Virus record (IMG/VR): IMGVR_UViG_3300024054_000036
Location: 1 to 36,482 of that record
DNA: 36,482 nt
Source: a virus
Reading direction: 5' to 3' (one strand)
Position 1 is the first letter of the stretch. The number at the start of each line of letters is the position of its first letter. Below, piece after piece: positions 15,452 through 36,081 of this stretch. A program made the position numbers and the translations under genes. The notes below the pieces were generated by a model. That model ran no database searches, was not told the origin of the DNA, and saw nothing but the letters and a program-made list of their open reading frames with translations.

Positions 15452-15485
15452 TATCCTTAACTGCGGACTCTTTTAGGAGGTTCGC

Positions 15486-15868: not shown

Positions 15869-15873
15869 TCACG

Positions 15874-15902: not shown

Positions 15903-15917
15903 TGGTAAAATCCCAAT
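15903..15917 (+). promoter_or_regulatory. Leaderless-type extended -10 (TGG-TAAAAT-N6-ATG)
   Basis: TGGTAAAAT ends at 15911, six bases before the ATG at 15918. It opens the HNH-RusA gene pair and probably the run toward the terminase genes. Confidence 0.6.
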
Positions 15918-16459: not shown

Positions 16460-16788
16460 TCGTCCTCGACATCCCCGAGAAAGTGTCCGCCAACGCTTTT
16501 TATGCCGGGATGCACTGGTCAAAGCGCAAGAAACTCGCAGACCTCTACCACGCCGCTCTCATCGAGCACCGCGCCAAGCGATTCAAGACCCCCGCGCATC
16601 TGACATTCACCTTCACGTTCAAGGGCAGACCGCTCGACGCCAGCAACACATTCGCAATGGCGAAGATGCTGGAGGACGGGCTTGTGAGATGGGGGATATT
16701 GCCGGACGACAACCCCGATTGCGTCGCGAGCATCAAGGTTCAGTCGCAGAAAGGGGGGAAGGATACGGTTAGTATACTTGCGGCGTGA
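16444..16788 (+). CDS. rusA: RusA-like Holliday junction resolvase
   Basis: This 114-residue protein shows the RusA pattern: an N-terminal strand and helix (SANAFYAGMHWSKRKKLADLYHAAL), LTFTFTFKGRPLDASNTFAMAKMLEDGLVRWGILPDDNPDCV with the conserved Asp residues (about 68, 84, 91 and 95 region) that bind metal, and a final strand. RusA cleaves branched DNA before packaging, consistent with its place directly upstream of the terminase genes. The length is normal for the family. Confidence 0.8.
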   Translation: MASNLIVLDIPEKVSANAFYAGMHWSKRKKLADLYHAALIEHRAKRFKTPAHLTFTFTFKGRPLDASNTFAMAKMLEDGLVRWGILPDDNPDCVASIKVQSQKGGKDTVSILAA

Positions 16789-16794
16789 GTTGCA

Positions 16795-16803
16795 TGGTAT
16801 AAT
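16795..16803 (+). promoter_or_regulatory. Extended -10 TGG-TATAAT for the terminase operon
   Basis: This is a consensus extended -10, 33 bases before the small terminase ATG. No Shine-Dalgarno site follows; the ATG is preceded by a T-run. Confidence 0.6.
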
Positions 16804-16835
16804 CAAACTATCAGCTATTGATATTCTGATTTTTT

Positions 16836-17123
16836 ATGGCGAAAGGTGACGGACGAGGCGGCGCACGCAAAGGCGCAGGGAAGCCAAAAGGATACAAAGC
16901 ACCTCACACGCTTGAGGCAATGGCCACAAGAGCCGCCTTTATAAAAAAGGTGGAAGAAAATCTTGATAACATATTCGCCTCGCTCCTTACCGAAGCGAAA
17001 AAAGGCAACGTCCAGGCCATCAAAGAATTACTTGATCGCGCATGGGGCAAACCACCGCAAGCACTCACTGACCCGAACGGCGGCTCTCTCAAGATCGCGG
17101 CTGTCGCCATCTCTCTCGAATGA
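16836..17123 (+). CDS. Terminase small subunit-like protein
   Basis: This 95-residue protein begins with GDGRGGARKGAGKPKGYKAPHTLEAMA, the Gly/Lys-rich GGARKGAGRP-type start of many phage packaging proteins, followed by helices (RAAFIKKVEENLDNIFASLLTEAKKGNVQAIKELLDRAWGKPPQ) as in small terminase or terminase-associated proteins. It is shorter than typical TerS. An ATGA overlap couples it to the large subunit. Confidence 0.65.
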   Translation: MAKGDGRGGARKGAGKPKGYKAPHTLEAMATRAAFIKKVEENLDNIFASLLTEAKKGNVQAIKELLDRAWGKPPQALTDPNGGSLKIAAVAISLE

Positions 17124-18460: not shown

Positions 18461-18473
18461 CTTTACCAATTAG

Positions 18474-18488
18474 TGTTATCATACGCAT
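18474..18488 (+). promoter_or_regulatory. Leaderless-type extended -10 (TGT-TATCAT-N6-ATG)
   Basis: TATCAT at 18477-18482 is followed by six bases and the portal ATG at 18489. The upstream TTACCAATTAG also occurs near 14863. Confidence 0.55.
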
Positions 18489-20219
18489 ATGGCAGAACGT
18501 CCATCGCTCGAATACAAAGACTTGTACGCCCGCCTTGATGAAGACGAGAAGAATTACCGCACCAGCACGATCAAGCTCTGGGACAGCATCGACTTCTCAC
18601 AGTACGAGACTCTGAAGCAGGCCGGATATTTCATTCTCTCCCGCTACATGAGCGGACAGACCGACGAACTGGGCCGCCTGAAACCGTTTCGTCAACTCTC
18701 GAACGGTGTCGTCGAGATCGAGTTCCGCGCAAAGAACATCGACCGCGCACATATCAGCTACAAGGCCACCGACGGCGATTACGGTTTTGCGCTCGCAGTC
18801 CGCAAGGAATTGCAAGAGTGGATGGAGGTGTCAGACTTCGGCACCTACATCGACGACTACCAGCGCAAGAAGGCGCAGTTCGGCACCACCATCACGAAGG
18901 TGAATGAGTACGATGACAGCCTTACGTTCACCGTCTGCGACTGGCAGAACCTCATCGTAAACCCGCGTGACATCAAGAACGGCGACATCGCCGAGGACAG
19001 GGAAATGACCCTGCGCGAGCTGGAGGATATGCGTGGCAAGTGGGACGACGTGGACAAGGCAATCGACGCTGCAAAGTGCGAGAAATACGACAAGAACGGC
19101 AAAGCCGTCACCGTGCGCGATGGTCAGGGCTACTTCCGCGCGTCCTACTTCACCGGCGACGAAAAAGACACAGACATCAAGCTCTACTACTTCATCTGCG
19201 CCGTCATCAACGAGAAGAAGTACCTCATGCACTACCACGAGCTGAAAAAGCCCGTGTATGTCGTCTCCCGACCTCGCAAGAAGATAGAGGGCCGCTCGCT
19301 CGGCATGGGCATCATCGAGGAATTGTTCAATCCGCAGATTTTCACGAATGAATCCGTCATCGCGGAAAAGTTCGCAATGGACATCGCCGGGAAGGTCATC
19401 ACCGCGACCAACAAAAAGACCCCAATCCCTTCCGCGTTGCAGCTCTTGGACGGCGAGATCATCGAAATCGACAAGCAAGCCGGTGAATACTTCGAGCCGA
19501 TCGCGCTCGGCGCTGGCGTCAACTTCCCCGAGTTTCAGAAACAGATAGACAATTGGTTCAACATCACGCAGTTCGACCAGTCCATCACCGACGCACTGCG
19601 CGGTGAATCATCGTCGGCACCGTTCGCAGCACAAGCGCTTCAGAGTGCACAGTCATCGTCAATCTTCAACAAGCGCCGCGATAACGACAGCTTCGACCTC
19701 ATTGACATCATCAACGACTATGTGTTCCCGCATATAGCCAACAAAATCGCAAAGGAACATAAGCTTTCCGTCTCGTTTTCACAGACCGAGGCGCAGTGGC
19801 TCGCGGAAGCGATAGGCGAAAAGAAGAAGGCGGACGCGCTGCTTTCCTCGCCGCTTGATGATCTCATCGAAATGGGCGTGCCGCAGGACGAACCTGTCGA
19901 GGTGAAAAGCGATGCGCTTCTTCACATCCCCAAGGGCTACATCACCGTCGAGAAGATAAACGCGAAAGGCCGTCTCTACATCACCAACGAGCAATCCGAT
20001 GACCAGCAGCTCATCAACACGCTCCTGATGAAGTTCAACAATCTCGCCCCAGAAGACCCCGGCCGCGAAGACATCGTGAATCAGATCATGGAGCTTGCTG
20101 GCGTGTCGCCTGCTTCTTTCGCAAGGAAGACAGGTGGCGGCGTAGTGAAAGCCAAGACACAACCAAAGAGCGCGACGGAATCGACCATCGAGAGCGCGCT
20201 CCCTGAAGGACAGGTATGA
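18489..20219 (+). CDS. Portal protein
   Basis: This 576-residue protein is placed directly after TerL and before scaffold and coat genes. Its content fits large podovirus-type portals: an N-terminal helical wing, a GDYGFALAVRKELQEWMEVSDFGTYIDDYQRKKAQFGTT segment, a beta-rich middle (VCDWQNLIVNPRDIKNGD), and a stem-crown part with GRSLGMGIIEELFNPQIFTNE. I call it mainly from length, order and overall pattern. It is coupled by ATGA to the next small gene. Confidence 0.8.
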   Translation: MAERPSLEYKDLYARLDEDEKNYRTSTIKLWDSIDFSQYETLKQAGYFILSRYMSGQTDELGRLKPFRQLSNGVVEIEFRAKNIDRAHISYKATDGDYGFALAVRKELQEWMEVSDFGTYIDDYQRKKAQFGTTITKVNEYDDSLTFTVCDWQNLIVNPRDIKNGDIAEDREMTLRELEDMRGKWDDVDKAIDAAKCEKYDKNGKAVTVRDGQGYFRASYFTGDEKDTDIKLYYFICAVINEKKYLMHYHELKKPVYVVSRPRKKIEGRSLGMGIIEELFNPQIFTNESVIAEKFAMDIAGKVITATNKKTPIPSALQLLDGEIIEIDKQAGEYFEPIALGAGVNFPEFQKQIDNWFNITQFDQSITDALRGESSSAPFAAQALQSAQSSSIFNKRRDNDSFDLIDIINDYVFPHIANKIAKEHKLSVSFSQTEAQWLAEAIGEKKKADALLSSPLDDLIEMGVPQDEPVEVKSDALLHIPKGYITVEKINAKGRLYITNEQSDDQQLINTLLMKFNNLAPEDPGREDIVNQIMELAGVSPASFARKTGGGVVKAKTQPKSATESTIESALPEGQV

Positions 20220-20443
20220 CACAAGACAAACTGAAATCATTTCACGACGACGACGCCATGATGAAAGCCGTGGAGTCGTTCTTTGCCGAGTACCTGTCCG
20301 ACGAAGCCGTCAAGCGTGTGTTCCGAAAGGAAGATACGCACGCGCTTGCAGAAGCGCGCGACGTGCTTCTCAAAGGTTTTACCAAATTGCGAGAACGCTA
20401 CGGCGTAGACCGCAAGGCGGGAAACCCGAACAGGGGATTATAA
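20216..20443 (+). CDS. Small helical late protein
   Basis: The 75-residue protein is helical and acidic-to-basic (DDAMMKAVESFFAEYLSDEAVKRVFRKED...), translationally coupled to the portal gene. No family is recognised; it may be a portal accessory or head protein. Confidence 0.5.
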   Translation: MTQDKLKSFHDDDAMMKAVESFFAEYLSDEAVKRVFRKEDTHALAEARDVLLKGFTKLRERYGVDRKAGNPNRGL

Positions 20444-20460
20444 GTTATCAAAATAATCGT

Positions 20461-20922
20461 ATGACCAAGAAAGAGATCACCGACAAGCTTGACGCATACG
20501 GCGTGCAATACGACCCGGAGGCACACGTCAAGACGCTTGAAAAGCAGCTCAATGAGCACGAGGCGGGGCAAAACAGCGTGCCACCGGCAGGGCAGGTTGA
20601 CGAGTCGCATCCTACTACCCAGCAAGAATTGAAAGCACCACAGCCGGATGTGCCGGAACCCAAGCCACGCGGCACCGGCTCGCGCTACCGTTCGCAGCTT
20701 TCACTGCGCTTCGCCGATCGCACCGAGGCGCACAACTACTACCTGACCATCGACGAGGCCAACGCACTGGAAGCATATGTGAACAGCGTGAAGGCCGAAG
20801 CAGGTGACGTTTCATTCATCCTTATCTACCGCAACGAAAAGCCGGTCTCGAAGATCACCGGCTTCGTTTCCGAGGAACAGGCCGCGATGCTCACCGAGTA
20901 TCTGAAGGTGGGCACGATGTAG
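20461..20922 (+). CDS. Late protein with HeH/SAP-like N-terminus
   Basis: In this 153-residue protein, residues 1-32 (MTKKEITDKLDAYGVQYDPEAHVKTLEKQL) match the HeH/LEM-like helix-extended loop-helix motif found at the ends of phage head proteins. A Pro/Gln-rich linker follows, then an alpha/beta domain (about 78-153). It lies between portal and scaffold, so a head-assembly role is plausible. The start context is CGTATG with no Shine-Dalgarno site. Confidence 0.55.
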   Translation: MTKKEITDKLDAYGVQYDPEAHVKTLEKQLNEHEAGQNSVPPAGQVDESHPTTQQELKAPQPDVPEPKPRGTGSRYRSQLSLRFADRTEAHNYYLTIDEANALEAYVNSVKAEAGDVSFILIYRNEKPVSKITGFVSEEQAAMLTEYLKVGTM

Positions 20923-20962
20923 TAGTTATCAACACGCTTGCGTAGAGCAGGCGTATGGTAAG

Positions 20963-20971
20963 TGGTAAGAT
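20963..20971 (+). promoter_or_regulatory. Extended -10 TGG-TAAGAT before scaffold-coat genes
   Basis: The motif lies in the 100-base gap before the scaffold gene, giving a leader of about 45 bases. A dedicated promoter for highly expressed head genes is plausible. Confidence 0.4.
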
Positions 20972-21023
20972 ATTAGTAACCGAGAGGCGTACTCTGACAA
21001 ACGCGTAACACTAGACGCTCACT

Positions 21024-21566
21024 ATGACAACTGAGCAAGAAACGCAGGAGACCGTAGAGGTACAGGAGACTGATACCACCACGGACACCGAGCAAGAAAC
21101 GCAGGAGACGGCACCTGCCGCAGAAGAAAAGCCGGACACGGATTATCGGGGAAAGCTCAACGCCACTCATCGCTTCCTTGAGAAGGAAGGATACGTCTTC
21201 AAAGACGGCAAGTGGCACAAGGTCGAGAAACCCGCAGAATCCAAGCCCGTTACAAACCAAACCCCGGCAGAATCCGGTCTGACCCGCGAAGAAGCAGTCG
21301 CCTACGCGCAGGGTCTGTCCGAGGAAGAGGTGGAGTACGCCAAGAAGGTCAAGTCCGTCGAAGGACACAAGACCTTGCAGGACGCCATCAAATCCTCATT
21401 GTTCACTCACTGGAAAAAAGACCGCGAGACGGAGCAGCGCAATAAACAAGCGCAGCTAGCACCGTCAAACGGTTCCGGCGGCGGCGCTCGAAAGACGCTC
21501 GCCACACCAGGTCTCACAAAAGAAGAGCACGCAGCTCTTGCTCGCGAGAGAATGAACAAGCGGTAG
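21024..21566 (+). CDS. Putative scaffolding protein
   Basis: This 180-residue protein is very acidic at the N-terminus (Glu/Thr/Gln-rich), helical in the centre, and basic at the end (EEHAALARERMNKR), a charge layout common in scaffolds whose C-terminus binds coat. It lies immediately upstream of the coat gene. A 20-base perfect direct repeat (21033-21052 and 21090-21109, 19-codon period) duplicates TEQETQET in the acidic part. Confidence 0.65.
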   Translation: MTTEQETQETVEVQETDTTTDTEQETQETAPAAEEKPDTDYRGKLNATHRFLEKEGYVFKDGKWHKVEKPAESKPVTNQTPAESGLTREEAVAYAQGLSEEEVEYAKKVKSVEGHKTLQDAIKSSLFTHWKKDRETEQRNKQAQLAPSNGSGGGARKTLATPGLTKEEHAALARERMNKR

Positions 21567-21593
21567 CATGTCGGGTTCTCAAGATAGAACCCT

Positions 21594-22484
21594 ATGGCAT
21601 TAGGAACCGATCATTTCACGCCCACCGACCTCGCGGAGTACATCCCGGAGGTATGGGGCACGCGTGTCAATGACTTCTATCGCCCGAAGCTCAAGTTCGC
21701 AAACTTCTTCACCAATCGTTCTGACGAATTGGCAGAAGGTGGCGACACGCTTCACACTCCGAACCTTTCAGAGATGACGGCGAACGCGAAAGTCAACGGC
21801 TCGCAGGTTACTCTTAACAGCCCGACGTTCACCGGCGTCAGCCTCGTGGTTGACCAGTGGTTCGAGGTTTCCTTCCTCATCGAGGACAAGGAAGCCGCGC
21901 AGGTGAAGAAGTCACTCAACACGCAGGAGCGCATGATGAAGAATGCGGCGCACACGGCGGCCAAGAAATTGGAAACCGCCATCGCCACGCTCTTCCAGAG
22001 CTTCAGCGTTTCGGTTGGCTCCACCGGCGTTGCCCTCACCGCAGCCGTCGTCCTTCAAGCGATTTCCTCGCTTGAGAGCGTCGATGCGGACTACGAGGAG
22101 GCAGCATGGCTCTTGCACCCGAAGACCTACTGGGTTGACCTCGTCACTCTTGACCGTTTCGCGCTCGCCATCAACACGGCAGATGCAGCGAACCCGGTCA
22201 TGAAGACCGCCCCGTACATGATCCACGGCCGCCCCGTCCTCACTTCGACGACGGTGACCAAGATCAACACGAACGCGGACTACGCAGGCGCTCTTGCGGT
22301 GCCGGATGCGGTTCACTGGGCCACCAGCCCGCTTCCAGGTGCACGTGACCAGTTCGGCGTGCGCCTTCAGGCGAGCTACATCCAGGAATACCTGGGCACG
22401 CTCGTCACGGCGGACTTACTCTACGGCGTCATCGAGAACCGTGACGCGGGAGGCATCCGTATCGTCTCGAAGGTCGCAGCCTAA
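21594..22484 (+). CDS. Major capsid protein (HK97 fold)
   Basis: The 296-residue protein is well-balanced in composition with no Cys. It has the expected coat order: an N-arm (TPTDLAEYIPEVWGTRVNDFYRPKLKFANFFTNR), an E-loop-like GGDTLHTPNLSEMTANAKVNG, a spine helix (QERMMKNAAHTAAKKLETAIATLFQSF), the P-domain (WLLHPKTYWVDLVTLDRFAL) and RPVLTSTTV near the end. The pattern is typical of P22-type and related phage coats. The position after the scaffold supports the call. A strong hairpin follows it. Confidence 0.8.
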   Translation: MALGTDHFTPTDLAEYIPEVWGTRVNDFYRPKLKFANFFTNRSDELAEGGDTLHTPNLSEMTANAKVNGSQVTLNSPTFTGVSLVVDQWFEVSFLIEDKEAAQVKKSLNTQERMMKNAAHTAAKKLETAIATLFQSFSVSVGSTGVALTAAVVLQAISSLESVDADYEEAAWLLHPKTYWVDLVTLDRFALAINTADAANPVMKTAPYMIHGRPVLTSTTVTKINTNADYAGALAVPDAVHWATSPLPGARDQFGVRLQASYIQEYLGTLVTADLLYGVIENRDAGGIRIVSKVAA

Positions 22485-22490
22485 CCTTGT

Positions 22491-22529
22491 GGCCGCACTC
22501 CGCTCCTTTACAGGGGCGGGGACGCGGCC
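22491..22529 (+). terminator. Long hairpin after the coat gene
   Basis: GGCCGC (22491-22496) pairs with GCGGCC (22524-22529), continued by CTCCGCTCCT (22498-22507) with AGGGGCGGGG (22512-22521, two G-U) around TTAC. It has no T-tract. It may trim or stabilise coat mRNA or reduce downstream transcription. Confidence 0.45.
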
Positions 22530-22557
22530 GGAAGGCATTACAAACTCACTTTCCATC

Positions 22558-22893
22558 ATGGACATCTACAAGATCGAACGCACCGTAGGGACAAGCGCGG
22601 CGAACACCGCACAGACCGTCTCTACCGCGACCGGCGCACGCAAGCGTGTCATTTCCGTGCATGTCGCGTACAGCGCCGCACCAACCCAGGCAGGCGTCAC
22701 CGTCACCCTCAATTCCGGCGCTGGCGCGGGTTACGACACGCTTCTGACGACCGGCACCGCAAACGCGCAATACACTTCGTACTTCCCGCAAGACCTCTAC
22801 ATCCTCACCGATGACGTGATTGACGTAGCAGCTCCCGCAGGCGGCGTCGGCATCACATCGAGCATCAGCATTTATACGCAAATCGTCGAATAG
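22558..22893 (+). CDS. Small beta-rich head/decoration-like protein
   Basis: This 111-residue protein starts at the ATG at 22558, the first ATG clear of the hairpin. It is rich in Thr, Ala, Gly and short strands (RVISVHVAYSAAPTQAGVTVTLNSGAGAGYDTLLTTGTANAQYTSYFP), suggesting a beta-sandwich. Placed right after the coat gene, it is a candidate decoration or head-completion protein. The call rests on composition and position only. Confidence 0.5.
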   Translation: MDIYKIERTVGTSAANTAQTVSTATGARKRVISVHVAYSAAPTQAGVTVTLNSGAGAGYDTLLTTGTANAQYTSYFPQDLYILTDDVIDVAAPAGGVGITSSISIYTQIVE

Positions 22894-22896
22894 CAT

Positions 22897-23085
22897 ATGT
22901 CAGACATCGCCGTATCAGTCTCACAGAATCCGAAGCGCGAAAGCGTCCTCATCAACCCCTACGGCCGCGCAGCCGATACGTTCGACCAGAACACCGGTAG
23001 GACGACCGAGGGCAACAACGTCTTAGCAGTAGGCGCATCTTCGCGCGAAGCACTCGCAAAACACTATGGGAAACGAGCAGTCTAA
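22897..23085 (+). CDS. Small late hypothetical protein
   Basis: The 62-residue protein is joined to the gene before it by TAG-CAT-ATG and overlaps the next by about 20 bases. It has no clear domain (VLINPYGRAADTFDQNTGRTTEGNNVL). It is probably structural or assembly-related from its place between coat and adaptor genes. Confidence 0.5.
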   Translation: MSDIAVSVSQNPKRESVLINPYGRAADTFDQNTGRTTEGNNVLAVGASSREALAKHYGKRAV

Positions 23086-23473
23086 GACATACGAGCGTGT
23101 CATCGAGGTGGATAGCGACGCTATCCGCTCCATGATCGCAGAGAAGGTCGCCCTTGCCGAAGAAGGGCAGGCGTACCAGCGCGAAGCCGAGGAGCTTGAG
23201 AAACAGCACAAGGCAATCGTAGAGAAGATGCACGATGTTGCGGACAAAATCCGCACCCTTCAAGTCGAGCGCATCATGCCGGAAGTCCGCACGCTCGTTG
23301 AAGACAAGCTCACTGCCTACGAAATCCCGACCACGACCGAGATACGCGACGGCAAGACTGTCGTCGTCGTGCATGATCTCGTAGAGCTGTACAAAGAGCG
23401 TTTCAGTGACTGGAATAAATGGGAGACGCCGTTGCCAGGCATGAAGAAGAAAGAGGAAGAGCCAAAAGAGTAG
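23066..23473 (+). CDS. Coiled-coil late protein
   Basis: This 135-residue protein has a long amphipathic helix over about residues 15-85 (DAIRSMIAEKVALAEEGQAYQ..EELEKQHKAIVEKM), then a beta hairpin with KTVVVVHDLVELY and a Lys/Glu-rich tail. It may be a head-tail assembly or scaffold-like protein. The start lies inside the preceding gene. Confidence 0.5.
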   Translation: MGNEQSKTYERVIEVDSDAIRSMIAEKVALAEEGQAYQREAEELEKQHKAIVEKMHDVADKIRTLQVERIMPEVRTLVEDKLTAYEIPTTTEIRDGKTVVVVHDLVELYKERFSDWNKWETPLPGMKKKEEEPKE

Positions 23474-23476
23474 CGT

Positions 23477-24226
23477 ATGCAGTATAACGAAACCACAAAC
23501 AAATCAGGACTCATGCAAGCGTGTGAGTTTTGGTGTGGTTTCCCCGACACCGGCATCACCGGCGACACGTTCTTGAAGCAGCAGTTTACCGTGCGCCTCA
23601 ACGCGGGTTTCGAGATGATACTGCCCTCGCTTCTCTCGCGCTCGAAGGCCGTCAAGTTCGACGACCCGAACAACGCAGACCAACCCGTAGGCACATTCAA
23701 CATTGTCAGCGGGACGCACGACTACGCGCTCACTGAAGACGATAACGGCCTCGATATCCTCAACGTGGTGTCGCTTGCTATTCTCCCGACTTCGTCAGCG
23801 ACCGAATATGAGACATTGACCCAGTTGACCCTAGACGACCCGCGCGCGCAGCGTGTTATGTCTCCCAACCCGTCAGACGTTGGCGTTCCGACTCACTGGA
23901 TGAAGCGCGGAAACACGGTCTACCTGTACCCGCAGCCCAATTACGCTGCCACCGCAGGCGTCAAAATCGCTTTCGAGCGCGAGCAGACGTACTTCACGAC
24001 AAGCGACACGACGAGAGAGCCGGGTATCCCAAAACCATTCCACGAGCTTCTTGCGCTCTATGCCTCGTATGACTGGATACTCGTCAACAAGAGCGACAAT
24101 GCAGTGCTCATTTCACGCGTCGAGGCGCGGATCGCGCGAAAGGAACGTGACCTCGGCATCCTCAACGACAAACGGCACCCGACGCGCAAACGCATCGCGG
24201 CAGCTGCTTGTACGAGGAGCAGATGA
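23477..24226 (+). CDS. Head-tail adaptor / tail tubular protein A-like
   Basis: This 249-residue protein starts in a TAG-CGT-ATG junction. The strand-rich middle with VPTHWMKRGNTVYLYPQPNY (about residues 138-157) is typical of the P22 gp4 and T7 gp11-like adaptor family, where a beta domain precedes helices; PGIPKPFHELLALYASYDWIL (about 182-202) is the conserved helical end. These proteins form a ring under the portal in short-tailed phages. The tail is basic. The call is good at family level. Confidence 0.7.
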   Translation: MQYNETTNKSGLMQACEFWCGFPDTGITGDTFLKQQFTVRLNAGFEMILPSLLSRSKAVKFDDPNNADQPVGTFNIVSGTHDYALTEDDNGLDILNVVSLAILPTSSATEYETLTQLTLDDPRAQRVMSPNPSDVGVPTHWMKRGNTVYLYPQPNYAATAGVKIAFEREQTYFTTSDTTREPGIPKPFHELLALYASYDWILVNKSDNAVLISRVEARIARKERDLGILNDKRHPTRKRIAAAACTRSR

Positions 24227-24256
24227 TTATCAAGATTATCCAATAACTAACTTACT

Positions 24257-24694
24257 ATGGCAACTTTCAACAAAGTAAACGACTTCGTCGAGAATTACGG
24301 CGAGGTCATGGACGTAGACGGCGACACGTTCATCGTCGCGCTCTCGAACACTGCACCGGCATCGGAGACGAACAACCCGACGACCGACACAAAGGGCGTG
24401 TTGGCGAACGTCACGCAGATCGCGTACACGAACCTGTCCGCGCGCACGCTCACGCTTTCCTCGTCGGCACAAGCGAGCGGCACTTACCGCGTGAAGTTCA
24501 ACGACCTTGTGCTCACCTCGACAGGAGGCAGCACCGGCCCGTTCCGGTACATCTACATCTATGATGACACGCCGACCTCTCCGGCCGATCCGCTCGTCTG
24601 CTACTACGACTACGGCAGCGCACTCACGCTCGCGAACGGCGAGTCACTCACCATCGACTTCGACGCAACGAATGGCCTGTTCAGCATCGCGTAG
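24257..24694 (+). CDS. Small tail/structural protein
   Basis: This 145-residue protein is beta-rich, with the MATFNKVNDFVENYGEVMDVDGDTFIVALSNTAP start that occurs in many phage tail proteins near fibre genes, and strands through to TIDFDATNGLFSIA. The exact role is unknown. A TAACTA-N7-ATG sequence upstream is close to the leaderless pattern. Confidence 0.6.
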   Translation: MATFNKVNDFVENYGEVMDVDGDTFIVALSNTAPASETNNPTTDTKGVLANVTQIAYTNLSARTLTLSSSAQASGTYRVKFNDLVLTSTGGSTGPFRYIYIYDDTPTSPADPLVCYYDYGSALTLANGESLTIDFDATNGLFSIA

Positions 24695-24714
24695 TTCATG
24701 ACTGCTGCACGAGT

Positions 24715-26034
24715 ATGGCAACCGTAGAATACCTTGTCGTTGCAGGTGGCGGCGCAGGAGCAGGAGGCACATCCCCTGGCACAGGCGGTGGTGGAGGAGG
24801 AGGTGGAGGTGTACAACACGGCACGTCGCTGTCTGTCACATCTGGTGCGTATACTATTACTGTAGGCGCTGGAGGCGCGGCGACTAATAATAAAGGTAGC
24901 AACGGTAGTGACTCTTCTATCGGTGCATTGGTAACTGCAAAAGGTGGCGGTGCTGGCGGTAGCGCAGCAGGAACCGTGACTGGTAACAATGGTGGTTCTG
25001 GCGGTGGCGGTGGAAGCAACCCTAGTGGAAGTGGAAGCACCTCTGCGGGCACAGGCACAGCAGGACAAGGAAGTAATGGTGGGGGTGGTAACAATGACTG
25101 GTGTCGTGGCGGAGGAGGCGGTGGTGGTAGTGCTACTGGTGCCGCCGCAACAACAGGTGCCGGAGGTAAGGCGGGTGACGGTGGAAGTGGTACTACGTCT
25201 TCTATTTCTGGTTCCGCCGTGGTTTATGGGTCTGGTGGCGGCGGGGCAGTCGGGGGTGGGAATAGCGGAACAGGAACTGGCGGTTCTGGTGCCGGCAACG
25301 GTGGAAATTTTGGTGCAGGAACCAATGGAACTGCGAACCGTGGCGGTGGTGGAGGAGGTTCTGGCGGGAGCAGTACAGGTGGTAGTGGTGGTTCAGGCAT
25401 TGTCATCATCCGCTACCACACTGACGGAAGCGACGGAGTATCAACGTCGTCTACTGGCGGTACGATAACAACTAGTGGTGCATATACAATTCATACATTC
25501 ACGAGTAGTGGTACATTTACTGCTGTTTTAGCCGGTGCTGTCATGACTGCGGCCGCAGGCTCCTTCATATTCACCGGCATTGCCGCCAATGTTCTAGTCT
25601 CACGCAAGCTCACCGCCGATACCGGGCCATTCACGCTCGCAGGCGTATCCGCAAATCTCCTCAAAGCGTCGAAGCTCACCGCAGAGACCGGATCATTCGT
25701 TCTCACCGGCGTATCGGCGGCCCTCTCCAAGGGCTACGTCATAACCGCAGCCGTAGGTTCATTCGTTCTCACCGGCGTGTCGGCAACTCTCACGAAAGCA
25801 TCTCTCCTAACAGCCGACACCGGCACATTCACGCTCACTGGCATCTCGGCGAATCTCAACCGGGCGTTTCGCATGACGGCGGAGACAGGCGTGTTCACGC
25901 TCACCGGCGTTGCAGCCATCATCCGCGAGCGCGCCGGACGCATAACGAACATCACTAAAAACGCTGCCACCGGTTTTGCGAACAAGGCGAAGAATGCAGC
26001 CGCGTCGTTTATAAATATCAGCAAAAGCACCTAG
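24715..26034 (+). CDS. Glycine-rich tail fibre protein with 24-residue repeats
   Basis: The 439-residue protein begins VEYLVVAGGGAGAGG and runs as a Gly-rich domain to GGSGIVIIRYHTDG (about residue 238), a pattern of phage fibre tips that fold as polyglycine helices and bind host surfaces. A short link (TSGAYTIHTFTSSGTF) follows, then six tandem repeats of about 24 residues of the form LTAETGSFVLTGVSA (about residues 281-410), probably beta strands, and a helical end. Receptor binding is likely. The Gly-rich DNA is strongly skewed and creates spurious antisense frames. Confidence 0.75.
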   Translation: MATVEYLVVAGGGAGAGGTSPGTGGGGGGGGGVQHGTSLSVTSGAYTITVGAGGAATNNKGSNGSDSSIGALVTAKGGGAGGSAAGTVTGNNGGSGGGGGSNPSGSGSTSAGTGTAGQGSNGGGGNNDWCRGGGGGGGSATGAAATTGAGGKAGDGGSGTTSSISGSAVVYGSGGGGAVGGGNSGTGTGGSGAGNGGNFGAGTNGTANRGGGGGGSGGSSTGGSGGSGIVIIRYHTDGSDGVSTSSTGGTITTSGAYTIHTFTSSGTFTAVLAGAVMTAAAGSFIFTGIAANVLVSRKLTADTGPFTLAGVSANLLKASKLTAETGSFVLTGVSAALSKGYVITAAVGSFVLTGVSATLTKASLLTADTGTFTLTGISANLNRAFRMTAETGVFTLTGVAAIIRERAGRITNITKNAATGFANKAKNAAASFINISKST

Positions 26035-26037
26035 CGT

Positions 26038-27429
26038 ATGGAGTACATAACGATTGACAGAAAAAACTTCCTTGCAGGAGCCACGACTTCTTCCGAGAGC
26101 GCGGACGGCGGTTTCGCGCCTGAATCCTACAATCTCAATCCAGCCTACAAAGCGGGTGTGATGTATGGAACGTCCACCGCTGTTGCGACAACTGGTGACA
26201 CTCCTACGGGAAAACTCATCGCCTCGACATCAGCTCAACTAACTACTCCTGAGAGTTTTCTTATCAGCGACGATCATAAGATTTACACATTTTATTCCGA
26301 TGCACTCACGTTGACGGCGACGCTCGCAACCAAGCAGTTTGAAGAAAGAGTCTCATCTATCATCCCGTTCGACGGCTATTTCGTCGCTCCTACAAGCGTG
26401 GCTGGTCGGGATATAGTAAAGATTAATAATAACGGTACTATCGCCACAGAGACATGGTGGTCTGTTACACTTGGCATGGGGGCTTCTTTGAACACCGATA
26501 CTACAGATCGCCCGCTTCTTGTGTATAACAAAAATCTCTATGTGGGCGATGGGTACAAAATCCGTAAAATCACGCCAGCTCTTGCCGTCTCAACGTCGCT
26601 CGTACTAGACGGATTAGACAACATCACTGCCTTCGGCGAAGACCCGGCGACCGGCTATATGCTCGTTGCATTCCAGAAAGCTATAAAGAATTCGTATATC
26701 AATAAAAGCGCACCAAGCTATATCGGCCTTTACGACGGATCATCAGCGACATTTGCACGGATCGTGCCCGTACAAGGTAAAATCCTCGCATTTTTCCCCG
26801 TCGGTGGCACAGTATACGTTGCATATCAGCAGAGCATCGGTATTTGGACGGGGACGGGCATACAGTTCCTACGGAAACTTCGCAGAGCAATATGGTTTCC
26901 GAGCGAACAGCTGCGATCTGACAAATTCGCTTCGGTCGGCACGACGCTTTATTTCGTTGACAAAGACGAGATCGTGGCATTCGGAGAGATAGAACAAGGA
27001 CAGCGTTCATTCCGTACCATCTACCGCGCCGAGAACACTATCGGAATGATACGTGTCAACGATTTGGAGCTCGTCTACTCGTATCAAGGAAACATGAAGC
27101 ACATTGACGTCACATCAGTATCCGCAGGCACATATTTTCAGTCGTTGCGCTACTACGCACCTGACCGCATCGACATCAAGGAAGTGGAAGTTACCTACGA
27201 TAACGCCGTCACCGCCGGACTCACCACTGCGACAGCCACCATCCTCGACGAGGAAGATACGGCGCGCTCTGTCTCGATAAAAAACTCGTCGTCATCGACG
27301 AAACGCGTGCTCTCCGGCCGATACAGCGGCCCGCCGACATTCTCATTCACTTTGCAGCTTTCGCAGACCAGCGGCGCGTATGGCTGGCGGCGCATCCGTA
27401 TCGGCTATCTGCCTGCAGGCAAAAAATGA
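26038..27429 (+). CDS. Beta-propeller-like tail nozzle protein
   Basis: This 463-residue protein contains repeated strand units with aromatic turns (FDGYFVAPTS, KNLYVGDGYKIRKI, GYMLVAFQKA, GTVYVAYQQSIGIWTG, TTLYFVDKDEIVAFGEI), consistent with a propeller. T7 gp12-like nozzles are beta-propellers that follow the adaptor gene, which matches the order here with a fibre gene between. The junctions are TAG-CGT-ATG before and TGA-T-ATG after. The role is inferred from fold-like pattern and order. Confidence 0.55.
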   Translation: MEYITIDRKNFLAGATTSSESADGGFAPESYNLNPAYKAGVMYGTSTAVATTGDTPTGKLIASTSAQLTTPESFLISDDHKIYTFYSDALTLTATLATKQFEERVSSIIPFDGYFVAPTSVAGRDIVKINNNGTIATETWWSVTLGMGASLNTDTTDRPLLVYNKNLYVGDGYKIRKITPALAVSTSLVLDGLDNITAFGEDPATGYMLVAFQKAIKNSYINKSAPSYIGLYDGSSATFARIVPVQGKILAFFPVGGTVYVAYQQSIGIWTGTGIQFLRKLRRAIWFPSEQLRSDKFASVGTTLYFVDKDEIVAFGEIEQGQRSFRTIYRAENTIGMIRVNDLELVYSYQGNMKHIDVTSVSAGTYFQSLRYYAPDRIDIKEVEVTYDNAVTAGLTTATATILDEEDTARSVSIKNSSSSTKRVLSGRYSGPPTFSFTLQLSQTSGAYGWRRIRIGYLPAGKK

Positions 27430-27430
27430 T

Positions 27431-27694
27431 ATGACACCGGAACAAAAAATAACGCAGCTCGAAATGCAACTCGCCGATTTGCGGTCGAAACTTGAGCTAT
27501 ATCGGCAAGTATTCATGCAAGAGGGACGACTGACGTACATCTCGGACGCAACAGAAGTCACCAACAAGCTCGCCACCACGCCGGGACTCTGGCACGAGCG
27601 CATGTTCATCGACGGCAACTCATCTCCCAAGCGCCTCTATGTGTTCACCGGCGAAAGCGCGAGCGGCACCTGGAGATATTCGGCATTGACCTAG
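27431..27694 (+). CDS. Small coiled-coil/beta late protein
   Basis: This 87-residue protein is started at the ATG at 27431, one base after the previous stop; an ATG at 27380 lies inside that gene. Residues 2-28 (EQKITQLEMQLADLRSKLELYRQVF) form a coiled coil; the rest has the pattern PGLWHERMFIDGNSSPKRLYVFTG, resembling a small attachment or chaperone domain of tail proteins. Confidence 0.55.
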   Translation: MTPEQKITQLEMQLADLRSKLELYRQVFMQEGRLTYISDATEVTNKLATTPGLWHERMFIDGNSSPKRLYVFTGESASGTWRYSALT

Positions 27695-27705
27695 TAAACA
27701 TACGT

Positions 27706-27717
27706 TACAATACAACT
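27706..27717 (+). promoter_or_regulatory. Leaderless-type -10 (TACAAT-N6-ATG)
   Basis: TACAAT at 27706-27711 is followed by six bases and the ATG at 27718. Confidence 0.55.
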
Positions 27718-29265
27718 ATGGCGACCAATCTTTACGAATACTACGCATCGCAGGGCAAGACACTCCCGAGCTTGACGGAGCGCCAGTCAATCGCGCAGCA
27801 GGCAGGTATCAGCGGCTACGCTGGCACCGCCGACCAGAACACCCAGCTTCTTGCTCACCTCCAAAAGACCGCCCCTGCGACGCCAGTACCATCAAGCACC
27901 GCCACGAACCTCGAAGACCTCGCACGCACCGGCAAGATCACCACGACACCGCCGGCTGCTCCCGCTTTTGATTTATCGAAAGAGCTTGCCGACTTCACCG
28001 CTCCCAAGAAACCGACCGAACAAGACATCCTGGCAGACCCTGCCGTGCAGCAGCAACAGAATACGCTCAATGAGATCACCAAGCAGCTCAATCTCTACAC
28101 CATCCAAACCGAACGCTTGAAAGATACAGCCCTTGACAGCGGCTACACCACCGGCTTCGGTTCTGCCGCAGCAGCTCGCACCGCGAAAGACCGCGCCTAC
28201 GATGCGATGGTGCTTGCCGCTAATGCAGACGCTATTCGTGGCAACCTTTCCCTCGCCGAAACACGGGCCGAGCGTGCTTTGCAGATCAAGTATGACACCG
28301 CCACAGAGCGCATCCGGCAGATACGCGGCGACATCATCAAGAACTACGACACCTTCACTGCGGGTGAAAAGAAGCTTGCACTCGCACGCCTCGAAGAACT
28401 GGACAGCAAGGATGCGTTCGTCGCCAACGAGCGAGAAAACGCGAAAGAGGTCAATAAAATCATGCTCACTGCCGCGCAGAACGGCGCGGACACTGCTACG
28501 TTGAACCGTATCCGCTCTGCTTCTAGCTTCAATGACGCGATCACCATCGCCGGTTCTGCACTGCAAGACCCGAAAGCAAAATACCAGCTTGAAGCCGCAC
28601 GACTCGACAATATTCTAAAGCGCGAACAAATCGCCACAGCTCAAAAACAGCGCTCTCTACTCGGACAACCAACAAATGAACAACAGAAAGCTCAAATAGA
28701 AGCATTGAAAGAGGCGCTGTCGTCCGTTCCTGTCATGCAGGACAAGATAACACTAGTAGACGCACTCAAGACACATCCAGGTATGTCATCGCGCGTCGGC
28801 ACTTCGGTCTACTCGCGTGGCACGCCGAGCACTCTCGGGAAAATAGCAGCATTCTTCGTCGGTGCCGGTGGCACGCAAACTAGCGCCGCAGCAGACAATC
28901 TGAGCGGCGCTGGACAGGAGTTCGCCGGCAGCATCCACAAACTCACCGGCGGGCTTACGCTCGACAATCTCATCGCAGCGAAAGAGCGCGGCGCGACATT
29001 CGGCGCACTTTCCGAAGGCGAACTCAAGATACTCGCTGACTCTGCAACTGCTCTCACCGACTGGGAAATCAAGGACAAGAATGCTAAGGGTACAGGCTAC
29101 TGGGATATCGACGAAGTATCATTCAAAAATGAGCTTGATACCATCAAGATGCTCACACGACGCGCACTCGAAAAATCGCAGACCACCATATTCACCCCCG
29201 AAGAGCAGGCAGTCCTGGACACCATACAGGCGCTCGATACTACCAGCCCAGCAAACTACTACTAG
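27718..29265 (+). CDS. Large helical internal/ejection-like protein
   Basis: The 515-residue protein starts LYEYYASQGKTLPSLTERQSIAQQAGISGYAGTADQNTQLLAHLQ, a peptidoglycan-binding-like or structural helix pair, then a long helical centre with Gln/Ala/Lys-rich segments and a Gly/Ala-rich stretch near residues 365-400 (IAAFFVGAGGTQTSAAADNLSGAGQEF). Two such proteins follow the nozzle gene, which fits ejected internal proteins of short-tailed phages. It has its own promoter. The role is inferred from size, composition and order. Confidence 0.55.
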   Translation: MATNLYEYYASQGKTLPSLTERQSIAQQAGISGYAGTADQNTQLLAHLQKTAPATPVPSSTATNLEDLARTGKITTTPPAAPAFDLSKELADFTAPKKPTEQDILADPAVQQQQNTLNEITKQLNLYTIQTERLKDTALDSGYTTGFGSAAAARTAKDRAYDAMVLAANADAIRGNLSLAETRAERALQIKYDTATERIRQIRGDIIKNYDTFTAGEKKLALARLEELDSKDAFVANERENAKEVNKIMLTAAQNGADTATLNRIRSASSFNDAITIAGSALQDPKAKYQLEAARLDNILKREQIATAQKQRSLLGQPTNEQQKAQIEALKEALSSVPVMQDKITLVDALKTHPGMSSRVGTSVYSRGTPSTLGKIAAFFVGAGGTQTSAAADNLSGAGQEFAGSIHKLTGGLTLDNLIAAKERGATFGALSEGELKILADSATALTDWEIKDKNAKGTGYWDIDEVSFKNELDTIKMLTRRALEKSQTTIFTPEEQAVLDTIQALDTTSPANYY

Positions 29266-29268: not shown

Positions 29269-30828
29269 ATGGCTTTCGACACAAAAGAACAGGAGATTAT
29301 CACTTGGGGCGTCAAGAACGGCAAGACCAAACAAGAGATCACAGACGCACTCGTCCGCTACCGCACCGGGGCAGGCCCGGTAACACAGCAAACAGAACCA
29401 GCAACGCAGACAACCAAGCCTGACTCTCCGGGCTTCGCGGATAATGTGAAGAAAGACTTTGCCGACCGCGTTGACACTGCATCCAATGCTATCGTGTCCA
29501 GCCAACACCCAGTGAGCAAGGTGCTCCAGACCATTGGCGAGGGAGCCGGATTCATCGGCGATGTCACCATGCGCACGCTCGGAGCAGTCACGCCGCAGCC
29601 CGTGAAAGATGCGCTTTCGAGCGCAGCCGGCGCAGTTGCAGACACACAGCTCGTCCAAGACACTGCTTCAGCATATCAGGAGTGGCGACAGAAGCACCCA
29701 GAAGCCGCCGCGAATCTCGAAGCCATCGGCAACATCGCGTCCATTCTGCCTATCGGGAAAGTCGCTAAGACCGGCGCAGACGCAACTGCATCTGTTGCGA
29801 GCAGGATCAAGAGCGCCACTATCCCGAAACTTCCCGATCCACCGTCCGGTGCATTCAAAGCAATCGGCAATATAGCAAGTGATATTGCCCCCAAAGCACC
29901 TGGCCTTCGAGACAAATTCGTTGCTCGCGCTTTCGGCTTGTCACCTACAACCGACATAGCGAACATAAAGAAATCTACCGGCAACGACATCGGTGAGTTT
30001 CTTGCGCGGTACGACCTCATCAAAGACACACCGGACGAGACGCTATCAGCGCTGCAAAAGTTCCACAAAACCAGCTACAACGACGTGCGCGACGCAGTTG
30101 CTCTCGTTGACGACCGTTTCACATTTGCCGAAGTTCCTGAAATGGAAAAAACCATCGACTTCCTCATAAAAGATTTCAAGGGCCGCTCATCGACCGAGTT
30201 CACAGATGCCGCCGAGCGCCTGGCACAAATGAAGAAGCGCGGCGACTTCGATTTGCTCGAAGGCCAGGAAGTGAAAGCCATGTTTGACCGCGTGGAGAGT
30301 ATCTACAAAAAAACCGGTGACGTTCGTGAGGCACTTTTAGCCCAAGACAAGGCGAATGTCGTCACACCGCTTCGCAGGTTTATCGAAGCTCGCGTCAAAG
30401 AGGCCACCGGCATCGACATAAGACCAATCAACAACAACACACAAACTGCCAAGGCAATCTCTGATGCTATAGAGCTTCGCGCAGGCAAATCAGACACTAG
30501 CTCATTCGCATCATTGGGTGACCTTTCAGCCCTCGGATTTGGTTCTGTCCTCAATCCAGCAGGCGGCGTTGCTGCGCTTGGCGTGAAAAAGATATTTGAA
30601 AGCGCTCCCATGCAGCTTCGACTCGCACGTTTCTTCGCAGGCAAAGCAGACGACCTCAACGGCCTTTCAGCCGCAGAATTGAAGTCGATTCAGGAACAAA
30701 TCCGCAAAGAATTGTTCGACGCGATTCAAGATGACAAAGTGATCCAGACAACTCCGGCCACAAAAAGTACAACAGCTAAAACTCCCATAAAGAAAACAGT
30801 ACCACCGAAGGCTGCGAACAGCAAATAG
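29269..30828 (+). CDS. Second large internal/ejection-like protein
   Basis: This 519-residue protein is joined by TAG-CAT-ATG to the previous gene. It begins TKEQEIITWGVKNGKTKQEITDALVRYRTG, a short helix-turn-helix-like unit, then a Thr/Pro linker and long helices; Ala/Gly-rich stretches (PQPVKDALSSAAGAVADTQ, GFGSVLNPAGGVAALGVKKIF) could insert in membranes. The C-terminus is Thr/Lys-rich. Its similarity in layout to the previous gene suggests both form the DNA-ejection conduit. Confidence 0.5.
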   Translation: MAFDTKEQEIITWGVKNGKTKQEITDALVRYRTGAGPVTQQTEPATQTTKPDSPGFADNVKKDFADRVDTASNAIVSSQHPVSKVLQTIGEGAGFIGDVTMRTLGAVTPQPVKDALSSAAGAVADTQLVQDTASAYQEWRQKHPEAAANLEAIGNIASILPIGKVAKTGADATASVASRIKSATIPKLPDPPSGAFKAIGNIASDIAPKAPGLRDKFVARAFGLSPTTDIANIKKSTGNDIGEFLARYDLIKDTPDETLSALQKFHKTSYNDVRDAVALVDDRFTFAEVPEMEKTIDFLIKDFKGRSSTEFTDAAERLAQMKKRGDFDLLEGQEVKAMFDRVESIYKKTGDVREALLAQDKANVVTPLRRFIEARVKEATGIDIRPINNNTQTAKAISDAIELRAGKSDTSSFASLGDLSALGFGSVLNPAGGVAALGVKKIFESAPMQLRLARFFAGKADDLNGLSAAELKSIQEQIRKELFDAIQDDKVIQTTPATKSTTAKTPIKKTVPPKAANSK

Positions 30829-33768: not shown

Positions 33769-34329
33769 CTACGCAGTCATGTTTCTTTCCACGAACCGAA
33801 GCGCCCACGCGCCAAAAGCAGCTCGCGCTCGGTGCACACCATCGCTGCCTGTATCTGCGTCCTTTTGCTGTATGGCTTTTGATAATTCATCTTTGGTGAA
33901 GAAGCATGTAGGGCTTGCGACGTGGAACGTCGGGTGTGCTACGAAGAATCGTTCCTGCGCCTCGCGCACTTTCGGTATCTCGTCCTCAGACAACGGACGA
34001 CCGCGAAGCGCCTGCGATACCATGTTCATCATCGCCACACTCTGCGCGCGCTCTCTTGGTTGCAGATCGAGCCGACGTTGACGGTATGCTCTAAAATCAC
34101 CGTTCATCCGCTCCAGGTCTTCAATGCCTCGCCTCTTGCGCTCTGCCTGGTTCGGGTCAGATGCATTCGGGATGATTGCCTTGATGGATGCCGCTTCGAC
34201 AAGCATCCCGTCTATGTCAATGCGACCGCGAATACTGTCGCTCTGCCATTTCGCCGCGAGTATCGCTCCCTTGGCATCGCTGATATACGCAGGCTCAATA
34301 TCTCCCTTGAACACTATTTTATACGACAT
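33769..34329 (-). CDS. Hypothetical protein of the replication operon
   Basis: This 186-residue protein is started at the ATG at 34329, which overlaps the end of the initiator gene by 11 bases. The N-terminal third is beta-rich (YKIVFKGDIEPAYISDAKGAILAAKWQS...GRIDIDGMLVEAASIKAIIP), the rest helical with an Arg/Gln-rich centre and a conserved-looking PTCFFTKDELSKAIQQKD. No known domain is recognised. Tight overlap with the replisome-organizer gene suggests it acts with it, perhaps in helicase loading. Confidence 0.55.
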   Translation of the reverse strand: MSYKIVFKGDIEPAYISDAKGAILAAKWQSDSIRGRIDIDGMLVEAASIKAIIPNASDPNQAERKRRGIEDLERMNGDFRAYRQRRLDLQPRERAQSVAMMNMVSQALRGRPLSEDEIPKVREAQERFFVAHPTFHVASPTCFFTKDELSKAIQQKDADTGSDGVHRARAAFGAWALRFVERNMTA

Positions 34330-35038
34330 ACAGATCAACTTTACGCTTGATAATTTCATCTTCCCACTGCCGATGTTTCAAGTACCGCTCCGGGTCTTTT
34401 ACGAACCCGCGTTGCCACTTGTCATCTTCGGCGAGCCGTTCCGGTATGTCTTTCAGTGTCGCAGCGCGATCTTCGGCTGATAGTTTCTTCCACTGCGCGA
34501 ACGCGGCGGCCTTCCCGGCACGCTTGGGATACAGAACCCAGAAGGCATCAAAGTCATCGGGGTATGTCGGCCGTTTCTTCGATGTTGTCCCCTCTCCCCT
34601 CTCACCCTCTGCGCTTTGCGCAGGAGTGTTACTCTCCTTACCTAACCTAACCTTACCTAACCTAACCTCGGGTGCCAACTGGTTGCCATTTGGTTGCCGT
34701 TCTGTATACGAACCATTTTCCTTTACTCTTAGCGATGCTTTTTCATCCAAATATTTTGTCTCATGGTAGCGGTCTTGTCGTATGAGATTGTGGATACGCC
34801 AATGCTTTATGACAACTACCCCATTCTCGAATGCAAGAATGAACCTCTTTACGAGTAGCACTTTCAAATCATCGTCATTGCCGCCAACCATGCGGAGTAT
34901 TTTTTTTGGATTCCCAACAAACCCGTCATCATCTGCCCTCATCGCAAGATGGAAATAGAGCAATTGCGATCCTTGCCCCATATCTAGGAACGCATCGCTA
35001 TCTACTATCTGCGGACTAAACATCCGACGCTGTGCCAT
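34319..35038 (-). CDS. Phage replication initiator / replisome organizer-like
   Basis: The 239-residue protein starts MAQRRMFSPQIVDSDAFLDMGQGSQLLYFHLAMRADDDGFVGNPKKILRMVG, a hallmark N-terminal winged-helix segment of phage replisome organizers that bind the origin. A variable linker follows (LGKVRLGK repeats and Glu/Gly-rich), then a C-terminal domain with DFDAFWVLYPKRAGKAAAFAQWKKL, typical of proteins that recruit helicase. It is the first gene of the leftward operon, preceded by a structured leader with a pseudoknot-like arrangement. Confidence 0.8.
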   Translation of the reverse strand: MAQRRMFSPQIVDSDAFLDMGQGSQLLYFHLAMRADDDGFVGNPKKILRMVGGNDDDLKVLLVKRFILAFENGVVVIKHWRIHNLIRQDRYHETKYLDEKASLRVKENGSYTERQPNGNQLAPEVRLGKVRLGKESNTPAQSAEGERGEGTTSKKRPTYPDDFDAFWVLYPKRAGKAAAFAQWKKLSAEDRAATLKDIPERLAEDDKWQRGFVKDPERYLKHRQWEDEIIKRKVDLYVV

Positions 35039-35040
35039 AC

Positions 35041-35109
35041 CTCAAACGCTATAAAGAGCCGCCGACCGGACAGTAAGCGGCTCGTGATAAAGTTTGAGAT
35101 TGTCCGGTC
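35041..35109 (-). promoter_or_regulatory. Structured leader of the replication operon (alternative stems)
   Basis: Three pairs of complementary segments overlap here. CTCAAAC (35041-35047) pairs with GTTTGAG (35092-35098), GAGCCGC (35056-35062) with GCGGCTC (35077-35083), and GACCGGACA (35064-35072) with TGTCCGGTC (35101-35109). The third pair crosses the first two, so it forms a pseudoknot or an alternative structure. The first pair covers the bases just before the ATG, including GAGG. This is the layout of a translational switch. Confidence 0.55.
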
Positions 35110-35191
35110 TCATTCCGCAAGCATACCACCTGTGAACAACACCTCATCACCTCGACCTGTGGATAGCGCACGATCCGTCAGTACGCCGCGC

Positions 35192-35203
35192 TACCATGCA
35201 AGC
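35192..35203 (+). promoter_or_regulatory. Leaderless-type -10 (TACCAT-N6-ATG)
   Basis: TACCAT at 35192-35197 is followed by six bases and the ATG at 35204. A DnaA-like TGTGGATAG lies at 35158-35166. Confidence 0.45.
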
Positions 35204-35380
35204 ATGGCCCTCATCTACCACGCTGACGGCTCGATAGAACGCTCAAACGACGCCGCGTACTACAGCGACAAGAAACCTGTCATTGTCCGTAAGGCAGACT
35301 GGCGCACCAAGACCGACGAGGAGATAGAAGCAGCACAGCACGACCCCGAGACAGCAGCCGATCGCTGGCACTCATCGTGA
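35204..35380 (+). CDS. Small acidic hypothetical protein
   Basis: This 58-residue protein is started at the ATG at 35204 with a leaderless-type promoter. It reads as a beta hairpin (MALIYHADGSIERSN...KKPVIVRKADW) then an acidic helix (DEEIEAAQHDPETAADRW). It diverges from the replication operon. No family is recognised. Confidence 0.55.
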   Translation: MALIYHADGSIERSNDAAYYSDKKPVIVRKADWRTKTDEEIEAAQHDPETAADRWHSS

Positions 35381-35399
35381 AAGCTGCTCTGCCTCAAAC

Positions 35400-35445
35400 A
35401 TAGGGCTTGGCCTCCGGCTTCGCTCGCTACTCTATCAAGCCCTAT
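35400..35445 (+). repeat. Hairpin downstream of the 58-residue gene
   Basis: ATAGGGCTTG (35400-35409) pairs perfectly with CAAGCCCTAT (35436-35445) around a 26-base loop. It has no T-tract; it is the first of several inverted repeats in the gene-free stretch 35381-35907. Confidence 0.45.
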
Positions 35446-35493
35446 ATCCCTGCCTTTCTGTCAATAGCCCAATGCTAGCACTATCAAGCACTT

Positions 35494-35804
35494 CCGCCAC
35501 TGCCGTCGTAGGCTATCCAGCCCCGACCCAATATGATTCTACGGTCAATACTAAGGAGAGGGTGAACCCAAAAACTAAAAGACATCTCGCTCTGGCCGAG
35601 CGGGGGCGGATCAATCCAACGGACACGTTATTCGCAGAAAACGAACACGCGCCGCTTCGCTCTGCGCGTCCGTTTTGCCTCATAACGTGTCCGTTGTCCT
35701 TTACCGTATATCGGAACTTGTCCGATATACGGGGGCAATGCCGTAGAATCATATTGGGTCGGGGCTGGCTGCGCATCCGCGCACACCCCCTCCGGCAGTG
35801 GCGG
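35494..35804. repeat. Large nested inverted-repeat element, gene-free
   Basis: The 527 bases between 35381 and 35907 hold no credible gene but fold on themselves. A perfect 28-bp stem pairs 35517-35544 with 35741-35768. Outside it 35494-35505 pairs with 35793-35804 (12 of 12). Inside it are a small hairpin at 35588-35602, a perfect 15-bp stem (35617-35631 with 35682-35696) whose interior closes as ACGCGC (35647-35652) with GCGCGT (35664-35669), and a perfect 12-bp hairpin at 35704-35732. The result is a multi-branched structure of about 310 bases, a strong candidate for a structured RNA or DNA element. No terminal duplication or transposase is visible. Confidence 0.7.
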
Positions 35805-35863
35805 TCAGTGTTGACAGTACGGCACTATCGACGCCGCACCTGTCTTTTGCTTGCAAGTAAGCA

Positions 35864-35881
35864 AACATTATATACAATGTT
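35864..35881 (+). promoter_or_regulatory. Palindrome over a TATACAAT promoter-like site
   Basis: AACATT and AATGTT arms flank ATATAC, overlapping a TATACAAT -10-like run upstream of the gene at 35908. It is a plausible operator-promoter for the early genes that run off the right end. Confidence 0.35.
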
Positions 35882-35907
35882 GTCATTACCAATTATCAAT
35901 ACATCGT

Positions 35908-36081
35908 ATGCAATTCCTCGTATTACTCAATCCCGCAACGGCAGTCTGTCACATCCGCATCATTCAGGATGACTTGGAAGCGGAGGCACAAGCCGAAGCC
36001 CTCGCAATGAAGACGGGCGCAACGCTTTCAAATTGCGAGTGGATGGCAGCCACAGACATTGATATTCAATCTTTCGCGTAG
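35908..36081 (+). CDS. Small early hypothetical protein
   Basis: This 57-residue protein is started at the ATG at 35908 (CGTATG context, TATCAAT upstream). An N-terminal hydrophobic strand (MQFLVLLNPATAVCHIRII) is followed by an acidic helix rich in Ala and Glu. No family is recognised. The junction to the next gene is TAG-CGT-ATG. Confidence 0.5.
   Translation: MQFLVLLNPATAVCHIRIIQDDLEAEAQAEALAMKTGATLSNCEWMAATDIDIQSFA

Follow-up and report, generated by a model that had tools for sequence, protein, structure and literature searches.

A nested hairpin element, with pairing far beyond chance, was confirmed at positions 35494–35804 of the phage DNA analysed here. As far as the collections searched can tell, the element is an orphan. 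Our tentative and weakly supported reading is that it may be a structured, phage-specific RNA, transcribed leftward as the leader of the replication operon.

The window, meaning the whole stretch of DNA that was analysed, is the complete IMG/VR record IMGVR_UViG_3300024054_000036, 36,482 bases in length and classed as linear. Judged by its genes, the phage is temperate and tailed. Genes and ORFs referred to here are the following.

6045–7196: integrase
17120–18460: terminase large subunit
21594–22484: major head protein
34319–35038, minus strand: DnaD-like helicase loader, first gene of the leftward operon
35204–35380: 58-aa ORF between the DnaD-like gene and the rightward ORFs

The element lies within an 870-base interval, bounded on the left by the leftward DnaD-like gene and on the right by the first of the rightward ORFs (35908); these ORFs are small and unannotated, and the record ends at 36482. 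This setting agrees with the original prediction, in which the element was placed between the replication operon and the early genes. The region had also been described as having no open frame, which does not hold, since two ORFs cross the element (166 aa, 35472–35972, plus strand; 87 aa, 35513–35776, minus strand); both look like chance frames, as checked by family models only. No relative of the small neighbour proteins was found in the phages searched, nor of the small protein encoded at 35908–36081 in the viral contig set. Elsewhere in the genome, a 1011-aa protein (8538–11573) resembles TraG/VirD4/HerA-type ATPases, with an intein apparently inserted at the Walker A motif; read by eye, it runs ...LGSC-LRGDTKIYD ... 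LAEGLIHHN-SGAGKST..., its family matches begin only at residue 566, and it is followed by a Replic_Relax-like protein. A pentapeptide-repeat protein (4671–5108) adjoins a NinB-like recombination protein.

Nested inverted repeats of 12, 28, 15 and 12 bp were found where they had been predicted within 35494–35804, all of them 100% complementary, and 5-bp hairpins were present as well. The parts of the element and the signals around it are listed below.

35041–35109, minus strand: leader of the DnaD-like gene, with interlocking repeats of 9, 7 and 7 bp
35400–35445: separate hairpin left of the element, 10-bp arms, also with GCGAAGC in its loop on the minus strand
35478–35485, plus strand: left copy of the 8-bp direct repeat GCACTATC, a possible target duplication
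35494–35505/35793–35804: P1, outer 12-bp stem, with imperfect pairing running outward to about 35484/35814
35517–35544/35741–35768: P2, perfect 28-bp stem inside P1, 196 nt between the arms
35588–35602: P3, small 5-bp hairpin inside P2, seen in the folds
35617–35696: P4, stem inside P2, with a 15-bp perfect outer part (35617–35631/35682–35696) and an imperfect inner part in which the motif AACGRACACG is repeated; minus-strand apex GCGAAGC (35654–35660)
35704–35732: P5, hairpin inside P2, 12 bp perfect (35704–35715/35721–35732), 5-base loop
35770–35783: small 5-bp hairpin on the right side between P2 and P1 (arms 35770–35774/35779–35783), read from the sequence and paired in the folds
35822–35829, plus strand: right copy of GCACTATC, a possible target duplication
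35847–35864: operator-like palindrome TTGCTT-N6-AAGCAA right of the element, the sole copy in the window

The claim that arms of this length are very unlikely by chance was upheld. When the whole window was dinucleotide-shuffled 40 times, arms found within 330 bases reached 14 bp at most, and arms of at least 12 bp numbered 7 in the window against a mean of 0.7 in the shuffles. Folding of 35480–35815 as RNA, one of the checks proposed, gave z-scores of −12.9 for the plus strand and −15.1 for the minus strand, and none of 100 shuffles matched these values. Fold energies were −194.3 kcal/mol for the minus strand and −179.5 kcal/mol for the plus strand, and the greater stability of the minus-strand fold favours a leader RNA. 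Of 150 controls in which the four perfect stems were kept intact and the remaining 202 bases were shuffled, 149 folded less well than the actual sequence on the minus strand and 142 on the plus strand. Pairing is therefore also contributed by sequence beyond these stems, which is a further point for a leader RNA. Against it, the difference between the strands was reached by 19 of the 150 fixed-stem controls and is not significant, and the fold of the same region as DNA was equally extreme (z −13.2 and −15.9). The additional pairing thus seems to lean to the minus strand, without being decisive.

The four perfect stems comprise 67 Watson-Crick pairs and zero G-U pairs, which is unusual in a conserved RNA and counts against the leader reading. 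Over the whole fold, the share of G-U was 5/121 pairs on the plus strand and 10/131 on the minus strand, compared with 325/2996 in shuffles. Such a low share is partly expected, the perfect arms having been selected for, and the lack of G-U in the perfect stems is as compatible with a DNA-level or recent origin as with an RNA.

Two further checks, for copies elsewhere in the contig and for covarying homologues, gave nothing: the element is single-copy in its own record, and no homologue was obtained by blastn, patterns or a single-sequence covariance model in the sets searched. Rfam 15 returned 0 matches at the gathering cutoff over the window and 0 at E values up to 1 over 34990–35960. By blastn, there was no match to the element in phages and plasmids and no copy at E 0.001 in 46 phage records reached via DnaD relatives together with MW202577.1, the best match there being 23 bases long and at chance level (E 0.018). 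The whole element was also not found in 379 genomes of the phylum to which genomes G046 and G047 both belong, nor was any match to it found in two orders (3 and 9 genomes). Exact patterns for the 28-bp stem (22 bases), for the paired arms and for the motif common to locus L175 (see below) each gave 0 hits over the viral contigs. The covariance model (35586–35735), a weak one made from a single sequence as two identical rows and run without a positive control, had the window as its sole hit in 100 sources and gave 0 hits in 45 records. No description of this element was found in one open-access literature collection, which need not hold all publications.

When the DnaD-like gene was used as a profile, 72 genome loci and 80 of 581 viral loci were listed; in a candidate phylum the gene was present in 1 of 286 genomes, namely G047 itself. 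Among the matches listed (153 loci), the best inverted repeat scored at most 22, against 28 in the window, and in 13 near relatives the score did not exceed 15 over the 1300 bases preceding this gene. Relatives with the same DnaD gene are, among the matches listed, without the element, so the operon does not generally need it; this argues against a leader RNA. Further whole or near-whole contigs had best scores of 26 (MW202577.1, 30164–30276) and 23, both simple pairs. MW202577.1 (44–47%) and G007 (45%) are the closest phages by terminase. In the former, a distantly related phage, the repeat at 30164–30276 is a near-perfect 29-bp inverted repeat with a 55-base loop and promoter-like sequence. 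In another relative (L005, 3705–3825), a perfect 12-bp inverted repeat with 97 bases between its arms lies about 180–300 bases before the DnaD-like gene.

Two short matches were obtained in the 379 genomes. The apex of P4 matched genome G143 (locus L175) at 30 of 33 bases by a tRNA-Val gene, with E 1.9e-5 for that genome and about 0.007 over 379 genomes; a 16-base core occurred in 1 of the 379, and nothing in its surroundings folds like the element. This match is an unproven lead only. The second, 21 bases in G098 (E 9e-4, 379 genomes), is likewise unproven and at the level expected by chance over that number of genomes. In L175 (1310–1636), from a small bacterial genome, the tRNA-Val gene is followed by a perfect 20-bp hairpin and then by a 24-base hairpin, and a 16-base repeat of the tRNA-Val 3′ end, 167 bases on, gives the locus the look of a small insertion at a tRNA.

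If the element is a leader RNA, leftward transcription would start from the palindrome-bearing divergent region near 35850–35900, and the element would be copied as minus-strand RNA some 450 nt upstream of the DnaD-like replication gene. The outer 12-bp and 28-bp stems would then enclose an inner multi-branched domain. A long perfect double-stranded RNA stem is of the type cut by RNase III, and the 28-bp stem may be cut in this way or may keep the leader in a fixed shape. Together with a second, switch-like hairpin at the DnaD start, the element would set the amount of replication protein.

This reading is consistent with the position of the element before the leftward operon, the first gene of which carries a structured leader of its own, and with the lone operator-like palindrome on the right side of the element. 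In the DnaD leader (35041–35109, minus strand), the interlocking repeats were reached in only 2 of 3000 mononucleotide shuffles, and the start region GTTTGAGGT-ATG lies within the most stable fold. The repeats resemble a two-state leader switch, and because such repeats and such a fold occur at the DnaD start, RNA-level control of the operon is plausible. Counting against a leader RNA are the lack of a homologue in the searched sets and of any promoter above chance level, since by the element 1 was found against 1.2 expected; the weak promoter-like hexamers overlapping the palindrome on both strands are also at chance level. It is improbable, although conceivable, that the element stands for an undescribed class in which a 28-bp clamp closes a multi-branched domain and, with a start-site switch, meters the replication protein, possibly in phages of Patescibacteria-like ultra-small hosts.

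Among known RNAs, the put RNA of phage HK022 would be comparable, if the leader reading is right, as a structured cis-acting RNA in a phage early-operon leader (PMC9378689). As described in that source, put is about 70 nt long with two stem-loops just downstream of the early promoter, whereas the element is about 310 nt long, has a 28-bp perfect stem and has no link in Rfam; in size and shape it does not match an antiterminator of the put type (PMC9378689). A retron or DRT non-coding RNA was rejected, no reverse transcriptase family being present in the Pfam matches listed (25 of 29 families), and the PADLOC match to RT_UG29 is the DnaG-type zinc ribbon of the ORF at 12799–13293, not a reverse transcriptase. 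GOLLD and ROOL RNAs occur in a phage setting and are larger than this element. They are described as large, ornate RNAs (PMC12286853), which the element resembles in its large fold with many branches and in its location where phage genes are sparse. Unlike these RNAs, it had no Rfam match even at a permissive threshold, and its stems are without the usual G-U pairs.

A close rival of the leader RNA, although somewhat unlikely in itself, is a MITE-like non-autonomous insertion in a gene-free control region, the hairpins of which would be its own ends and inner palindromes. Such an insertion would have no phage function, or only side effects such as promoters or RNase III sites. Terminal inverted repeats including the perfect 28-bp arms, a small size without a credible gene, and absence from the relatives searched all agree with an insertion. 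Flanking target duplications had been named as support for a mobile element, and the outcome was mixed: the 8-bp repeat GCACTATC at 35478 and 35822 has a probability of about 1% by chance, since of 5000 placements made at random with the same spacing, 47 had a repeat as long or longer, but its copies do not adjoin the repeat ends: between them and the perfect outer arms are 8 and 17 bases. No exact direct repeat was found directly at the element ends at the four boundaries tried. Also against an insertion, the record holds one copy, and none was found in the 46 related or comparison records (E 0.001), in phages or plasmids, or, as a whole, in the 379 genomes of one candidate host phylum. No transposase family was present among the matches listed for the 66 ORFs (25 of 29 Pfam families), and on these matches a transposon with its own transposase was rejected. 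Correia elements are shorter than this element. Like Correia/NEMIS-type and other MITEs, it is a short intergenic sequence that carries no credible gene, has inverted ends with perfect or nearly perfect complementarity and can fold into a hairpin, as far as these features are described in PMC2649163, PMC2229807 and PMC10969869; it differs from them in being single-copy, in having no target duplication adjoining the boundaries tried, and in its extra nested stems. For Correia elements, RNase III binding and effects on the expression of neighbouring genes have been reported (PMC2649163), so elements of this type may join the leader and insertion readings.

Third in rank, and rather unlikely, is a hairpin or cruciform acting at the DNA level by binding a phage or host protein, for example a regulatory hairpin extruded by supercoiling at a divergent promoter region or a primosome loading site on single-stranded DNA. 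The perfect arms without G-U would suit such a structure, and both strands fold as DNA. The sequence GCGAAGC forms an unusually stable DNA mini-hairpin; it is present at the P4 apex and, on the same strand, in the loop of the hairpin at 35400, which is in favour of a DNA hairpin, but it occurs 17 times in the window. The arms of P2 are 196 bases apart, and arms at that distance extrude poorly as a cruciform; a likely origin elsewhere, inside the DnaD-like gene, also speaks against it. Phage N4 offers a precedent, in that its supercoil-extruded hairpins are able to drive early promoters and, as here, inverted repeats lie by early genes and could extrude as DNA; the N4 hairpins are, unlike the element, short with a heptamer centre (PMC4496689). 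N4 has a virion polymerase, and none of the N4 type was seen among the search matches here, in which that family was not specifically sought.

The original prediction had also offered replication or resolution as a role, and this was disfavoured. A replication origin or an attachment or resolution site is very improbable for the element, even though it lies by a replication gene and inverted repeats are common at such sites. Iteron-like DNA, made up of GGTTAGGTTAGGTAAGG and GGCAACCAAAT repeats, was found at 34632–34698, inside the DnaD-like gene and outside the element. The GGTTAGGTTAGGTAAGG DNA was matched in 118 of 153 loci (among the matches listed), in phages of very different hosts, and loci such as L091, L050 and L086 showed 89.6–91.8% identity there over 61–67 bases. 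This DNA is likely the replication origin; origins inside replisome-organizer genes are known from lambda O and Tuc2009. Relatives among the matches listed keep the DnaD gene without the element, which is a further point against an origin there. An attachment site was rejected for the element, since a tRNA-Lys(UUU)-like 3′ half, CCA included, was read by eye at about 5930–5985 (about 5948) on the minus strand beside the integrase and is the probable attP; with up to 3 mismatches allowed, none of the 286 genomes searched in a candidate host phylum had this site. Neither a protelomerase nor an HUH family was present among the Pfam and PADLOC matches listed for the 66 ORFs, and a protelomere was rejected on the former ground. 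Least probable of all, and hardly to be expected, is an assembly artefact: the element is in one record only, and two contigs from the IMG/VR samples 3300044996 and 3300044511, near-identical to the window (99.99% and 99.96%) over 13813–28457 and 7120–25231 in the parts examined, both end before it, but one fold-back gives one mirror, and four nested repeats that are unrelated to one another and differ in their spacers make such an artefact unlikely.

If the leader RNA is real, the known controls of phage replication would be extended by a large structured RNA, in a phage group little studied by experiment. If the element is instead an insertion, it would represent a small mobile element of nested hairpins, present in a phage in a single copy. 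In both cases, very strong non-random structures can be orphans in present collections.
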